Shown in pieces: positions 50,253-62,012 of a stretch of DNA of 64,000 nt. Position 1 is the stretch's first letter. Each line of letters starts with the position of its first letter. The position numbers and the translations under genes are program-made. Where the stretch lies: positions 124,001-188,000 of the forward strand of contig NZ_SIUB01000004.1 of NCBI RefSeq assembly GCF_004310425.1, given 5' to 3'. Under the pieces are notes generated by a model. That model did not search any database and was not told the origin of the DNA. It saw only the letters and a list, made by a program, of their open reading frames with translations. This DNA comes from Hansschlegelia quercus. Its GTDB lineage: Bacteria; Pseudomonadota; Alphaproteobacteria; Rhizobiales; Methylopilaceae.

Positions 50253-50430
50253 CGTAGGACCGCTCAATTCTCAAGCCGTGAGCGCTTGGCGAGCCCGGTC
50301 GAATGTTCCGGCATATGGAAAATTCTGCCGCTCTCCGACGGTCGACAGTTACCACTCAAGATAACCAATTATTCATGGATAGATTACGCGTCGTTAACCT
50401 TTCAACATCGTTCAAAACGCCGCTTTTCGC

Positions 50431-50445
50431 TTAGCCAAATGTTAA
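50431..50445. promoter_or_regulatory. Near-consensus CtrA box upstream of sciP
   Basis: TTAGCCAAATGTTAA fits TTAA-N7-TTAA with one mismatch. It lies 52 bases before the sciP ATG, a position suited to activation by CtrA. sciP is a CtrA target in Caulobacter. Confidence 0.6.
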
Positions 50446-50496
50446 ATGAGCGCGCGTAATCTCATGTGAAGGGTCAGACGTCGCGTGAGAGTATCG

Positions 50497-50772
50497 ATGA
50501 CCGAGATGCATCGTGGACGAACCAAATACGTGATCGGCCCGGACGGGAGTCCGCTCACGATCGCGGATCTGCCGCCGTCCGACACGAAACGTTGGGTCAT
50601 CCGGCGCAAGGCGGAAGTCGTAGCCGCCGTGCGCGGCGGTCTGCTCAGTCTCGAAGAGGCCTGCCAGCGCTATACGCTAACGGTCGAAGAGTTCCTGTCG
50701 TGGCAGGCTTCGATCGACCGGCATGGCCTCGCCGGCTTGCGTACGACGCGTATCCAGCAATACCGGATCTGA
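50497..50772 (+). CDS. sciP: CtrA inhibitor SciP (DUF1153)
   Basis: SciP binds CtrA and blocks its activation of target promoters late in the cell cycle. The 91-residue helix-turn-helix protein reads MTEMHRGRTKYVIGPDGSPL, IADLPPSDTKRWVIRRKAEV and LSLEEACQRYTLTVEEFLSW, as in Caulobacter SciP. ATG 50497 is used rather than GTG 50485 because family members start MTEM. It ends at a terminator and precedes fliF. Confidence 0.95.
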   Translation: MTEMHRGRTKYVIGPDGSPLTIADLPPSDTKRWVIRRKAEVVAAVRGGLLSLEEACQRYTLTVEEFLSWQASIDRHGLAGLRTTRIQQYRI

Positions 50773-50803
50773 CGACGTTTCCTGAAGCTACGCCTTCCGA
50801 AAG

Positions 50804-50830
50804 CGCCGGCCCTCGTGGCCGGCGTTTTCG
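50804..50830 (+). terminator. Terminator after sciP
   Basis: A stem CGCCGGCC/GGCCGGCG with a 5-base loop is followed by TTTTCG, 31 bases after the sciP stop. It separates sciP from the fliF promoter. Confidence 0.85.
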
Positions 50831-50843
50831 TTTTCGGCCGCCA

Positions 50844-50858
50844 TTAATCCCGAGTTAA
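50844..50858. promoter_or_regulatory. Perfect CtrA box upstream of fliF
   Basis: TTAATCCCGAGTTAA is an exact TTAA-N7-TTAA CtrA motif, 74-88 bases before the fliF start and directly after the sciP terminator. The Caulobacter fliF operon is activated by CtrA at such a site. Confidence 0.85.
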
Positions 50859-50931
50859 CGCCGCGTTTACCATCTGCCGGGCAATTCTTGCCGGGCGCCG
50901 GTCCTGGGGGAGCGGCCGGAGGTCGGCGACT

Positions 50932-52584
50932 TTGGGCGGTCTGGTTCAGTTTCTGCGTTCATTCGGCGCCGGCCGGATCGCCGCCATGATCGCGGTGACG
51001 CTCGCGCTGATCGGATTCTTCGCCTTCGTCATGGTGCGCTTCACCGCGGTCGAGATGACGCCCCTCTTCACCGATCTCTCGCTCTCCGACAGCGCGGCGA
51101 TCGTGAAGGAGCTCGACCAGCAGGCGATCCCTTACGAGCTGCGCCAGGACGGCGCCGGCATCCTGGTTCCTCGCGACAAGGCCGCGAAGATCAGGATGCA
51201 GATGGCCGAAAAGCGCCTGCCGTCGGGCGGCGGCGTCGGCTGGGAGATCTTCGACAAGGGCGACGGCTTCTCCTCGACCAGCTTCGTCCAGAACGTCAAT
51301 CATCTGCGCGCGCTGGAGGGCGAGCTGTCGCGCTCCATCGCCTCGCTCGACCGCGTGGCCTCGGCCCGCGTCCACCTCGTCGTGCCGGAGCGCCCGCTGT
51401 TCTCGCGCGACGCGCCGCAGCCCTCCGCCTCGATCGTGATCCGCACCCGCGGCGAACTCGGGGCCGGCGAGGTGCGGGCGATTCGCCATCTCGTGGCCTC
51501 GGCCGTGCAGGGGCTGAAGCCGGAGAAGGTCTCCCTGGTCGACGACAGCGGCAAGCTGCTCGCCGACGGCGCCGATCTCGACCCGGCCGCCCAGGGCGAC
51601 GACCAGACGACCACGCTCGAGAAGCGGCTGCGCGACCGGGTCGAGGCGATCGTCGGCCGGGTGGTAGGCTCCGATCGCGCCCGCGTCGAGGTGCGAGCGG
51701 ACATCGACCGCACGAAGTCCACGTTGACCTCCGAGAATTACGACCCAGAGAGCAAGGTGGTCCGCTCCACCCAGACGCGCGAGGAGAGCTCGCAGTCGAC
51801 CGAGCCCGCTGAGCAGGGCGCGACGGTCGCGAACCAGCTTCCGAACGCGAATGCGGCCCCCGCCGGCGCTCAGGGCGCGAAGGACGCCTCGAACAAGAAC
51901 GAGGAGGTCGTGAACTATGAAATCTCCCGCACCACCCGCACCGAAGTGCTCGACGGCGGAAAGCTGAAGCGCATCTCGGTCGCTGTGCTGGTCGACGGCG
52001 TCTATAGCCACGCGCCGAACGGCGACGTCTCCTATGCCGCCCGCCCGCAGGAGGAGCTCGACCGGATCGCCGCCCTGGTGCGCGCCGGGGTCGGCTTCGA
52101 CCAGGCGCGCGGCGATACGGTCGAGGTCGTCAATCTACGCTTCGCGGACGCGCCGAGCGCGCTCACGCCGGCGGCCGAGCCGGGCTTCTTCGAATTCGAC
52201 CGCTCCGACATCATGCGCTTCGCGGAGCTCGGCGTGCTCGCTCTGCTCTCCTTGCTGGTCCTGCTCTTCGTGGTCCGGCCGCTGCTGCGCAAGGCGCTGT
52301 CGCCGGAGGCCCCTCCCCTGCTCGCGACCGCCGCTCAGAGCGAGCTTGTTCCGGCGCAACAGCCCGGCGTCGCCGGCGCGCCAGGGCAGCAGGTCGCGGC
52401 GCCGAGCCTCGTCCCCGAACCGACGCCGCTGTCCGATCCGGCGCAGACCGGCCGGCGGCTCGAGGCCGCCGAGATGGCCGGCCGCCTCAAGGCGGAATCG
52501 ATCGACAAGGTCGGCGAGATGATCATGAACAACCCGACCGAGAGCGTCTCGATCATCCGCCAGTGGATGCAGGAGCCCGCCTGA
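50932..52584 (+). CDS. fliF: Flagellar MS-ring protein FliF
   Basis: FliF forms the membrane ring on which the motor and export gate are built. The 550-residue protein has membrane segments at residues about 18-38 and 425-445. Between them lie YscJ-like ring domains (VQNVNHLRALEGELSRSIAS, ARVHLVVPERPLF) and a disordered linker; the cytosolic tail binds FliG. It starts at TTG 50932 with GGAGG 9 bases upstream. It is first of the fliF-fliG-fliH-fliN-flbD operon, preceded by the CtrA box. Confidence 0.97.
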   Translation: MGGLVQFLRSFGAGRIAAMIAVTLALIGFFAFVMVRFTAVEMTPLFTDLSLSDSAAIVKELDQQAIPYELRQDGAGILVPRDKAAKIRMQMAEKRLPSGGGVGWEIFDKGDGFSSTSFVQNVNHLRALEGELSRSIASLDRVASARVHLVVPERPLFSRDAPQPSASIVIRTRGELGAGEVRAIRHLVASAVQGLKPEKVSLVDDSGKLLADGADLDPAAQGDDQTTTLEKRLRDRVEAIVGRVVGSDRARVEVRADIDRTKSTLTSENYDPESKVVRSTQTREESSQSTEPAEQGATVANQLPNANAAPAGAQGAKDASNKNEEVVNYEISRTTRTEVLDGGKLKRISVAVLVDGVYSHAPNGDVSYAARPQEELDRIAALVRAGVGFDQARGDTVEVVNLRFADAPSALTPAAEPGFFEFDRSDIMRFAELGVLALLSLLVLLFVVRPLLRKALSPEAPPLLATAAQSELVPAQQPGVAGAPGQQVAAPSLVPEPTPLSDPAQTGRRLEAAEMAGRLKAESIDKVGEMIMNNPTESVSIIRQWMQEPA

Positions 52585-52585
52585 G

Positions 52586-53617
52586 ATGGCACGCCCCCCC
52601 GCAGCCACCATTGCAAACGGCCGCCGTCCAAGCGGAGTCGAACGCGCGGCGATGATGATGCTCATCCTCGGCGAGACCCACGGCGCCCCGATCTGGGAAC
52701 TGCTCGACGACGACGAGATCCGCGAGCTCTCAGCCGCGATGGCGGCGCTCGGACCGGTCTCGATGACGGTCATCGAGAACCTGATGGTCGACTTCGTGTC
52801 TCGGCTGAGCGCGAACGGCGGGGTGATCGGCGACGTCGATTCGACCGAACGCCTGCTGGTCCAGTTCCTGCCGAAGGACCGCGTCGGCATGATCATGGAG
52901 GAAATCCGCGGACCGGCCGGCCGCACCATGTGGGAGAAGCTCTCCAACGTGCCGGAGGTCGCGCTCGCGAGCTATCTGAAGAACGAGTATCCCCAGACCG
53001 TCGCGGTGGTGCTGTCCAAGATCAAGCCGGAGCAGACCGCCAAGGTGCTCGCCATCCTTCCGGAGGAGTTCGCGCTCGACGTGGTGCGCCGCATGCTGGC
53101 GATGGAGAGCGTGCAGAAGGACATTCTCGAGCGCATCGAGCAGACGCTGCGTCATGAGCTGATGTCGAGCCTGTCTCAGACGTCGAAGCGCGACCCGCAT
53201 GAAGCGATGGCGGAGATCTTCAACGCCTTCGACCGGCAGACCGAAACGCGCTTCCTCACCAAGCTCGACGAGGCCGCCAAGGAGAGCGCCGACCGCATCA
53301 AGCAGCTGATGTTCACCTTCGATGACCTCGGCAAGCTCGACTCCGCCGGCATTCAGACGCTGCTGCGCGATGCGCCGCGTGACAGGCTTGCGGTTGCGCT
53401 GAAGGGCGCGACATCGAGCATGCGCGATTTCATCCTCGAGAACATGTCGAGCCGCTCGGCGAAGATGATGCTCGACGACATCGAGAACATGGGACCGGTC
53501 CGTATGCGCGACGTCGACGAGTCGCAATCGGCGCTGGTCGCGCTCGCCAAGGACCTCGCCGCCCGCGGCCAGATCGCCATCGCCAAGAGCAAGGGGGAGG
53601 ACGAGCTTGTCTACTGA
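52586..53617 (+). CDS. fliG: Flagellar motor switch protein FliG
   Basis: FliG couples the stator to the rotor and sets rotation direction. The 343-residue protein has the N-terminal domain that binds FliF (GVERAAMMMLILGE), the middle domain EYPQTVAVVLSKIKPEQTAK with the conserved EHPQT-like motif, and the C-terminal torque domain (MFTFDDLGKLDSAGIQTLLR). It starts one base after the fliF stop codon. Confidence 0.97.
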   Translation: MARPPAATIANGRRPSGVERAAMMMLILGETHGAPIWELLDDDEIRELSAAMAALGPVSMTVIENLMVDFVSRLSANGGVIGDVDSTERLLVQFLPKDRVGMIMEEIRGPAGRTMWEKLSNVPEVALASYLKNEYPQTVAVVLSKIKPEQTAKVLAILPEEFALDVVRRMLAMESVQKDILERIEQTLRHELMSSLSQTSKRDPHEAMAEIFNAFDRQTETRFLTKLDEAAKESADRIKQLMFTFDDLGKLDSAGIQTLLRDAPRDRLAVALKGATSSMRDFILENMSSRSAKMMLDDIENMGPVRMRDVDESQSALVALAKDLAARGQIAIAKSKGEDELVY

Positions 53618-53650: not shown

Positions 53651-54298
53651 GTGAGCGCGCCTGTCCGCTTTCTGTTCGACCACGACTTCACCCGCCCCGC
53701 TTCCGCGAAGGCCGCCAGTCCGGAGACGCCCCCGGACGTTCCGCTCGCGGCTCACCAGGCGGCGATCGCGAAGGCCGAGGCCGACGGCTACCGCCGCGGA
53801 GAGGCCGACGGCAAGCGCGCGGCGCGCGAGGCCGACGCCGCGCGGATGACGGCCGCGATCGAGGCGCTCGGCGCTCGCCTTGCGCAAGCCTATGTCGAAG
53901 CCGAACGGCGCGTGATGGAGAACGAGCGCTCGGCCGTGGAGCTGGCTCTGGCCTTCGCCAGGAAGCTCTCCGGCGCAGCCGTCGCGCGCTTCCCGCTCGC
54001 CGAGATCGAGACTGCGGCGGAGGAGTGCTTCGCGGAGCTGCGTCTCGCCCCGCATGTGGCGGTGCGCGTCGCGCCCGACTTCGTGGAGCCGGTGCGCGCG
54101 GAACTGACCTCGATCGCCCAGATGCGGGGCTTCGCCGGCCGCCTGATCGTGCTCGGCGACCCCGAGATCGCTGAAGGCGACGCACGACTCGAATGGGCGG
54201 ACGGCGGAGTGGTGCGCGACGCATCCACCGTCGCCGCGGCGCTCGATCGCGCGATCGAAAAGCGCTTCGGCGCGGACGTTGAAGGAGAGCCTGCGTGA
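53651..54298 (+). CDS. fliH: Flagellar export regulator FliH (FlbE-like)
   Basis: FliH binds and regulates the export ATPase FliI. The 215-residue protein has an N-terminal segment ending in charged, coiled-coil sequence (AEADGYRRGEADGKRAARE) and a C-terminal FliH/YscL-like part. The GTG start at 53651 has GAGGAG 9 bases upstream. Its position between fliG and fliN matches Caulobacter flbE. The stop overlaps the fliN GTG start. Confidence 0.88.
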   Translation: MSAPVRFLFDHDFTRPASAKAASPETPPDVPLAAHQAAIAKAEADGYRRGEADGKRAAREADAARMTAAIEALGARLAQAYVEAERRVMENERSAVELALAFARKLSGAAVARFPLAEIETAAEECFAELRLAPHVAVRVAPDFVEPVRAELTSIAQMRGFAGRLIVLGDPEIAEGDARLEWADGGVVRDASTVAAALDRAIEKRFGADVEGEPA

Positions 54299-54642
54299 GC
54301 GCGGACAAGACGGTTCCCCTGCCTGAGCTCGGCGGCGAGTCCGAGGTCGACCTCGTCGACCAGCCCTTGCAGCCCGGCGCGCCCGACCCCCGCACCGCCG
54401 CGGATCTCGAGGCGGTGTTCGACGTGCCCGTCTCCGTCTCGGCCATCCTCGGCCGCGCCAGGATCGAGGTGCGTCAGCTCATGGGGCTGAAGCCCGGCGC
54501 GATCGTGGAGCTCGACCGCAAGGTCGGCGAAGCGATCGACATCTACGTCAACGACCGGCTGGTCGCGCGCGGAGAAGTCGTGCTCGTCGAGGACAGGCTC
54601 GGCGTGACCATGACCGAAATCATCAAACCCGACCGGAATTGA
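54295..54642 (+). CDS. fliN: Flagellar motor switch protein FliN
   Basis: FliN forms the lower C-ring with FliM. The 115-residue protein has a variable N-terminus and a SpoA domain from about residue 40: VFDVPVSVSAILGRARIEV, LKPGAIVELDRKVGEAIDIY and GEVVLVEDRLGVTMTEII. GTG 54295 overlaps the fliH stop (GTGA). flbD follows by 10 bases. Confidence 0.96.
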   Translation: MSADKTVPLPELGGESEVDLVDQPLQPGAPDPRTAADLEAVFDVPVSVSAILGRARIEVRQLMGLKPGAIVELDRKVGEAIDIYVNDRLVARGEVVLVEDRLGVTMTEIIKPDRN

Positions 54643-54652
54643 GGAGAGCCCG

Positions 54653-56014
54653 ATGCGCCTCACGATCGTCGGCCACCTCAAGGGCCAGCTCACCACCGCG
54701 ACCCGCATCGCCATGAATCGCGGCGCGGCCGTCACCCACGCCGAAAGCGTCGATCAGGCGATGCGCACGCTGCGCGCCGGCCGCGGCGCCGACCTCATCA
54801 TGGTCGACGTCGCGCTCGACGTGCGCGAACTCGTCGAAGCGCTGGGAGCGGAGCGGTTTCACGTTCCCGTGGTCGCCTGCGGCGTCGACAATGACGCGAA
54901 GGCCGCGGTCGACGCGATCCGCGCAGGGGCCAAGGAGTACATCCCGCTCCCGCCCGACCCCGAGCTCATCGCGGCGGTCCTTGCGGCGGTCGCCGACGAC
55001 GCGCGCGACCTCGTCTTCCGCGACCCGTCGATGGTCTCCCTCGTCCAGCTTGCCACCCAGATCGCGGCGTCGCAGGCGAGCGTGATGATCACCGGCGAGA
55101 GCGGCTGCGGCAAGGAGGTGCTGGCCCGCCACGTCCATTCCAAGTCGCCCCGCGCGAACGCGCCGTTCATCTCGGTGAACTGCGCCGCGATCCCCGAACA
55201 CCTGCTGGAAAGCGAGCTGTTCGGCCATGAGAAGGGCGCCTTCACCGGCGCGACCTCCCGGCGCATCGGCAAGTTCGAGGAGGCCTCGGGTGGCACGCTG
55301 CTGCTTGATGAGATCTCGGAGATGGACGTGCGCCTGCAGGCGAAGCTCCTGCGCGCGCTGCAGGAGCGGGTGATCGACCGCGTCGGCGGTTCGAGGCCCG
55401 TGCCCGTGGACATCCGCGTCATCGCGACCTCGAACCGCAATCTCAGCGAGGAGGTCCGCAAGGGCACGTTCCGCGAGGACCTGCTCTACCGCCTCAACGT
55501 CGTGAACCTGAAGATCCCGCCGCTGCGCGAGCGGCCGGCGGACGTCTATGAGCTCTCCGCCCATTTCGCGAAGAAATACGCGCTCGCGAACGGCATGCCG
55601 GTGCGCCCGCTTTCGGCGGAGGCGCGCATGGAGCTCGCCCGCGGCCGCTTCCCGGGCAACGTCCGCGAGCTCGAGAACACGATCCATCGCGCGGTCCTGC
55701 TGTCGACCGGGCCTGAGATCGGCGCCGAGGCGATCCGCAATCCGGACGGCGCGCCGCTCGGCTCCGGCCCGCGGGACACCGCGACGCGCGCGGCGGAAGC
55801 CGCGGAAAGCGTGACGCGCGGCTTCGTCGCCCGCTCGCTCGCCGACGTCGAGCGCGATCTGATCTTCGACACGCTCGGCCACACCCGCGGCAACCGGACC
55901 CATGCCGCGAACATCCTCGGCATCTCGATCCGTACGCTGCGGAACAAGCTCAACCAGTACGACGACGAGGGCTTCGCCGTGCCGCCGCCGCCGAGCGGAG
56001 TGGCGGCGGCCTGA
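54653..56014 (+). CDS. flbD: Sigma-54 flagellar transcription regulator FlbD
   Basis: FlbD activates late flagellar promoters with sigma-54 and represses fliF in Caulobacter. The 453-residue protein has a receiver-like domain (residues 1-115), an AAA+ domain with GESGCGKE, GAFTGA (residues 195-200) and LLLDEISEM, and a Fis-type helix-turn-helix (HAANILGISIRTLRNKL). The receiver keeps an Asp at 52 but lacks the acidic pair and Lys, as expected for FlbD, which does not need normal phosphorylation. Last gene of the operon. Confidence 0.94.
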   Translation: MRLTIVGHLKGQLTTATRIAMNRGAAVTHAESVDQAMRTLRAGRGADLIMVDVALDVRELVEALGAERFHVPVVACGVDNDAKAAVDAIRAGAKEYIPLPPDPELIAAVLAAVADDARDLVFRDPSMVSLVQLATQIAASQASVMITGESGCGKEVLARHVHSKSPRANAPFISVNCAAIPEHLLESELFGHEKGAFTGATSRRIGKFEEASGGTLLLDEISEMDVRLQAKLLRALQERVIDRVGGSRPVPVDIRVIATSNRNLSEEVRKGTFREDLLYRLNVVNLKIPPLRERPADVYELSAHFAKKYALANGMPVRPLSAEARMELARGRFPGNVRELENTIHRAVLLSTGPEIGAEAIRNPDGAPLGSGPRDTATRAAEAAESVTRGFVARSLADVERDLIFDTLGHTRGNRTHAANILGISIRTLRNKLNQYDDEGFAVPPPPSGVAAA

Positions 56015-61967: not shown

Positions 61968-61982
61968 CTAACGATCGGTTAA
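61968..61982. promoter_or_regulatory. Near-consensus CtrA box upstream of a hypothetical gene
   Basis: CTAACGATCGGTTAA matches TTAA-N7-TTAA with one mismatch and continues with CC, giving the TTAACC half-site. It is placed to regulate the gene starting at 61924 on the minus strand. Confidence 0.5.
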
Positions 61983-62012
61983 CCATGCCGACGGATCGGG
62001 AGGTTGTCGGAG

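Follow-up and report, generated by a model that had tools for sequence, protein, structure and literature searches.

A conserved CtrA box and a candidate FlbD palindrome in front of the fliF operon of Hansschlegelia quercus

How the early flagellar genes of Hansschlegelia quercus are switched on and off is a question raised by the gap between sciP and fliF, which lies in a 64-kb stretch of DNA (64,000 nucleotides, here called the window). The gene sciP (50485–50772, + strand) encodes the CtrA inhibitor SciP (NF051866, 146 bits at a cut-off of 100; the start codon is uncertain) and is followed on the same strand by a hairpin at 50798–50830 with a 14-bp stem, a 5-nt loop, and a U-rich 3′ side. 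This hairpin (−30.6 kcal/mol, z −4.3) is likely an intrinsic terminator; a simple terminator scan did not list it, and that scan together with one for sigma-70 promoters gave no usable prediction at fliF. The genes that follow, all on the + strand, are fliF (50932–52584; TIGR00206, 284.8 bits; a TTG start is proposed), fliG (52586–53617; TIGR00207, 234.5 bits at a cut-off of 226.7), a fliH-like gene (53651–54298; NF004690, E 3e-42, below the curated cut-off), fliN (54295–54642; TIGR02480, 95.3 bits at a cut-off of 84.05), and flbD, coding for a sigma-54-type regulator (54653–56014; NF050807, 819.8 bits at a cut-off of 750). The NCBIfam cut-offs are passed by SciP, FliF, FliG, FliN, and FlbD. 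The host groups with Hyphomicrobiales of the Methylopila/Hansschlegelia type: among named genomes, its fliF has its best relatives in Chenggangzhangella methanolivorans (80% in the segment that matches best) and Hansschlegelia beijingensis (76%). The genes are taken as one operon, fliF-fliG-fliH-fliN-flbD, whose promoter would be the sciP–fliF gap.

The genome encodes all the regulators of the switch considered here: CtrA (G000:C11:5255-5926; 421.7 bits at a cut-off of 350), SciP, FlbD, and the FlbD partner FliX (125.5 bits); the models for SciP, FlbD, and FliX also match the control genome of Caulobacter vibrioides. A CtrA-like box of the form TTAG-N7-TTAA stands before sciP at 50431–50445 on the + strand (TTAGCCAAATGTTAA). 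This form recurs in 18/18 family genomes, 53–58 bp ahead of where sciP is estimated to start, and in 0/18 when the stretch is reversed, and sciP itself is probably under CtrA control. The half motif of SciP is given as GCGAC (PMC4287350); no copy of it is found in the sciP–fliF gap as read by eye. On the other side of sciP, toward fliK (minus strand, from 50197), an FlbD-type match, GGAAAATTCTGCC, occurs at 50317–50329. Such a match is expected if fliK is a target of FlbD, and the loose pattern often matches by chance in the window.

The original prediction placed a perfect CtrA box directly between the sciP terminator and fliF and took it as a sign that CtrA controls the early flagellar genes in this lineage. 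Such a box is indeed present: TTAATCCCGAGTTAA reads on the + strand at 50844–50858, after the hairpin and before the fliF start at 50932. It is the sole exact TTAA-N7-TTAA of the window, and 100 dinucleotide shuffles of the window gave 0 exact copies. The genome-wide count proposed along with the prediction yields 18 exact sites in 3.58 Mb as against 2 for the reversed pattern.

As a conserved site, the exact box was rejected: it is missing at the sciP–fliF locus in 17/17 other family genomes, its left half (50844–50847) being private to the host within the family. Among 20 named loci, only one (L031, from a Hyphomicrobiales MAG) carries an exact box 5′ of fliF, and there with other letters. 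The box that is conserved lies 11 bp downstream and overlaps the reported one. It has the form TTAA-N7-TTTACCAT, spans 50855–50873 on the + strand (TTAACGCCGCGTTTACCAT), and shares with the reported box only 50855–50858—the right half of the latter. A counterpart is found at the orthologous place, 3′ of sciP, in 18/18 family genomes. Measured against TTAA-N7-TTAACCAT, which we take to be the usual longer CtrA consensus, the reported box deviates at three positions and the conserved box at one. The site named for CtrA is thus corrected by 11 bp, with its exact bases given, which matters for mutagenesis.

The conserved box is followed by a second element, which the reading of the gap as a site for CtrA alone had missed: the palindrome GGCAATTCTTGCC at 50880–50892, of the form GGCA-N5-TGCC. 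It starts 8 bp past the TTTACC of the box and lies over the presumed −10 region. It is the only place in the window at which GGNA-N5-TGCC is matched on both strands, and the palindrome pattern alone is not enriched there (6 matches, 7.75 expected). The palindrome is proposed as an FlbD (ftr) site, a label given by the logic of the locus rather than by comparison with the published ftr consensus. A reading as a sigma-54 promoter was rejected on spacing: the window has GG-N8-GC at 50880–50892, whereas the RpoN motif of the −24/−12 type has GG-N10-GC (PMC12403871). In the relatives, the GG-N8-GC spacing is fixed by the search pattern and does not constitute an independent test. Box and palindrome together form a module of 38 bp (50855–50892, + strand). 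The corresponding family stretches read TTAAC-N6-TTTACC and then GGCAA-N3-TTGCC or a near form.

Searched as a composite with a free gap of 3–14 bp between box and palindrome (12 gap lengths), the module is found in 18/18 family genomes and its reversed pattern in none, with one copy per genome directly 3′ of sciP. Of 55 family matches, 41 are exactly 38 bp long; the others measure 33, 34, 35, or 37 bp. Across the order, the composite occurs in 240/397 genomes, with the reversed pattern in about 47 (a count copied by hand). In the rest of the class, a composite with a narrower gap occurs in 15/141 genomes and its reversed pattern in 7, so by these pattern counts box followed by palindrome is mainly an arrangement of the order.

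The two elements were also scored separately within 219 bp upstream of fliF, with at most two mismatches to TTAA-N7-TTAACC allowed for the box. For the family, 17 of 18 loci were used, L006 being dropped since no fliF start was found. The order is represented by one genome per family, with 26 of the 30 non-own families that have an FlbD genome (no fliF stretch was obtained for G024, G029, G031, and G063; G056 is included, with an FlbD that scores under the model threshold). The set from outside the order comprises 19 stretches out of 20, L156 being cut; the 20 are the top of a list of 33 further FlbD genomes over the cut-off; G482 was skipped, its flbD lying close to a contig end, and G400, G438, G459, and G535 were left out, as a module was already known 3.7–3.8 kb before their flbD. 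The CtrA-type box is present in 17/17 family, 23/26 order, and 9/19 outside promoters, over a reversed-stretch background of 3/17, 5/26, and 3/19. The palindrome GGNA-N5-TGCC is present in 17/17, 26/26, and 17/19, with 0/62 in reversed stretches and 2/62 in stretches inside fliF. The box counts for family and order lend good support to the predicted CtrA control of the fliF operon. Outside the order, the difference between 17/19 and 9/19 suggests that the FlbD-type palindrome has been kept more widely in fliF promoters than the CtrA box. At nine loci (L093, L098, L107, L111, L118, L119, L122, L158, and L160), the palindrome, sometimes imperfect, flanks the CtrA-type box on both sides.

The module goes with flbD. 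With FlbD scored by NF050807 at E 1e-150 in 130 order genomes, the module is found in 66/75 genomes with FlbD and in 11/55 without (P 1.6e-15; the entries of this cross-table were copied by hand), and no match to the composite pattern is seen in 9/75 FlbD genomes. Counted as matches, there are 147 in genomes with FlbD and 12 in those without, as against 10 and 8 for the reversed pattern, which puts the genomes without FlbD near background. Since SciP is present in 118/130 of these genomes, the module tracks flbD rather than sciP. In stretches downstream of sciP, a match of at least 15 of 19 on the + strand occurs in 14/29 with FlbD and 0/19 without, and in 0/48 reversed stretches; this scoring took in genomes in which fliF does not adjoin sciP. 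Of the 55 order genomes without FlbD, 18 have fliF. One of these, L177, was dropped from the set (a genome of 88% completeness in which fliF adjoins sciP and both sites are present). For the other 17, the 219 bp upstream of fliF contain the palindrome in 0/17 and the CtrA box in 0/17, their reversed stretches in 1/17 and 0/17; a wider stretch of 500 bp gives one palindrome match in 17. The fliF genes of order genomes without flbD are more distant, and the absence of both sites may reflect a different flagellar system rather than the loss of FlbD alone: in the sampled genomes, carrying flbD cannot be told apart from having this flagellar type.

The host genome holds three modules: the one at fliF; one at C7:501769-501806 before flhA (Pfam FHIPEP); and one on the minus strand at C7:549542-549579 before genes that are flgC-, fliE-, and fliQ-like by eye, opposite which lies a fliO-like gene (by a weak Pfam match). 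In the flhA promoter (L041; G000:C7:501748-501806), an exact TTAA-N7-TTAA stands directly before the module, so that four TTAA/CTAA half-sites follow one another. Near the 17 exact boxes other than that at fliF are found minC, flhA, the fliO-like gene, an ABC ATPase (FtsE by eye), a sensor kinase, and genes for lytic transglycosylase, kinase/pyrophosphorylase, polysaccharide export, and porin proteins, among others; 20 neighbors were scanned, four of them without a Pfam match, and the neighbors of L051 and L055 fall outside the scan. As a gene list, this set resembles the predicted CtrA regulons of the class, which cover envelope, motility, and cell cycle (PMC2877005). The exact box at G000:C15:80069-80083 (L054) lies between minC and a DsbA-like gene; 6 bp past it stands GGCAAATTATGCC, so that a cell-division locus also carries a palindrome of the FlbD type. 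Within the window, a CtrA-type box with one mismatch (CTAACGATCGGTTAACCAT, 61968–61986) lies past the 3′ end of an ORF resembling aldo/keto reductases, and no gene is seen there that could be under its control.

The order of the two parts may differ between promoters. With the palindrome scored slightly more loosely than in the fliF promoter counts above, a TTAA lies 24–26 bp before the palindrome in 23/26 order promoters, three of which show in addition a TTAA no more than 12 bp past a palindrome, and neither spacing is seen in 3/26. Outside the order, the palindrome comes first and a TTAA follows within 12 bp in 8/19, the order of the window is found in 4/19, and neither in 7/19; if G400, G438, G459, and G535 are added with their placement at fliF assumed, the order of the window rises to 8/23. 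An evolutionary swap of CtrA box and palindrome is a lead rather than a settled fact, because a TTAA alone does not prove a CtrA box.

These observations are best accounted for by a class II fliF promoter that would be activated by CtrA and repressed by FlbD, the latter made from the same operon—a reading to which we assign a probability of about 75%. It builds on the two sites and how they are conserved, on a spacing between them that is mostly constant within the family, and on the association with flbD, all of which the comparison of genomes demonstrates at the level of sequence. Phosphorylated CtrA would bind 50855–50873 across the −35 region and recruit RNA polymerase. FlbD, the last product of the operon and controlled by FliX, would then bind 50880–50892 and shut the promoter. 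The outcome would be a delayed negative feedback, by which the early flagellar genes are expressed in a pulse only. By analogy with Caulobacter, transcription driven by CtrA would in addition be damped by SciP, whose gene lies upstream and has a CtrA-like box of its own. In Caulobacter, most CtrA-activated promoters carry one site at −35 (PMC11264516). Given such a placement of the CtrA box, the palindrome would extend over the −10 region, as would suit a repressor.

That the exact box at 50844–50858 is the working CtrA site, with the overlapping downstream box in a secondary role, appears unlikely, even though it is a perfect and genome-wide rare TTAA-N7-TTAA. It is absent from the other family loci, matches the longer consensus less well than the downstream box, and is displaced by 11 bp from the position that a box usually has relative to the palindrome. 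Its position may nevertheless matter. Among 74 distinct modules at fetched loci, 17 carry an extra TTAA 9–12 bp 5′ of the box, with a mean of 4.25 per offset in this range as against 0.35 at offsets 15–60; this set includes some close relatives of one another. In a set of one genome per family of the order, the extra TTAA is found in 5/22 where 0.35 is expected (P 2e-5), the range of 9–12 bp having been picked post hoc, after the counts were known. The TTAA at 50844 stands at offset 11 from the conserved box, and the left half 50844–50847 may serve CtrA as an accessory half-site, one helical turn 5′ of the core.

The palindrome could alternatively be the site of another regulator, or a sigma-factor core element at CtrA promoters, with FlbD only co-inherited. 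Its placement where the −10 region is expected would suit a core element, and the co-occurrence of flbD with this flagellar type would leave room for co-inheritance. Yet GGCA-N5-TGCC is palindromic, unlike a −10 element; in 8/19 promoters outside the order it immediately precedes a TTAA that may belong to a CtrA box, a position in which it can hardly be one; and its spacing differs from that of a canonical sigma-54 promoter. We regard this alternative as rather improbable, though less so than the exact box as the working site. Finally, the gap might be an AT-rich spacer that arose by chance between terminator and fliF and has no regulatory role. This is contradicted by the conservation in family and order, the reversed controls, and the association with flbD, and is extremely improbable; chance occurrence was rejected on the shuffles, the genome-wide reversed pattern, family conservation, and the FlbD cross-table.

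A wider picture can be sketched, which we offer tentatively and at somewhat below even odds. A joint CtrA–FlbD site, usually of 38 bp, would be the standard early flagellar switch in Hyphomicrobiales that keep flbD, in the present genome at fliF, flhA, and the operon with flgC-, fliE-, and fliQ-like genes. In the course of evolution the parts would have traded places: the box would come first in this order, the palindrome in some of the other members of the class. Some copies would be tuned by an additional, third half-site for CtrA, located one turn 5′ of the box. From a gap held so closely to 8 bp it would follow that the two proteins come together on the DNA, in direct competition or in contact, instead of working separately.

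Among known systems, the proposed switch is related to three. The Methylosinus sporium 5 “Motif 3” precedes flgB, motA, flgF, fliF, and flgE (PMC12403871) and lies within 40 nt before mapped flagellar starts, fliF included, in another methylotroph. “Motif 3” could be the same module, and the module offers a possible explanation for this unassigned flagellar promoter motif. In the parts available of the open-access literature, which is not all print, no description of the module outside Caulobacter was found. The Cereibacter (Rhodobacter) sphaeroides promoters fliF2p/fliL2p resemble the host in that the promoter of fliF has a CtrA box, located near −35 in Cereibacter, where the fliF promoter depends on CtrA in reporter assays (PMC6180460). 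They differ in that one box serves two divergent promoters and that no FlbD-type palindrome is named in the portion available of that source (PMC6180460).

The closest counterpart is the class II fliF promoter of Caulobacter crescentus: the gene is the same and the regulators are the same, the likeness being one of parts and not drawn from promoter sequence or geometry. In Caulobacter, CtrA activates early genes and FlbD binds ftr4 at fliF and represses fliF (PMC3930126), and expression of a fliF-lacZ fusion rises without FliX (PMC3096577). The host, and by sequence most of the flbD genomes sampled in the order (66/75), would thus fall under the early flagellar logic of Caulobacter. In the host, the box comes first and the palindrome begins 8 bp beyond it, whereas in the 8/19 promoters outside the order the palindrome precedes the TTAA. 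The type of switch is known from Caulobacter; what may be new is how closely its geometry is kept and that its parts may have changed places.
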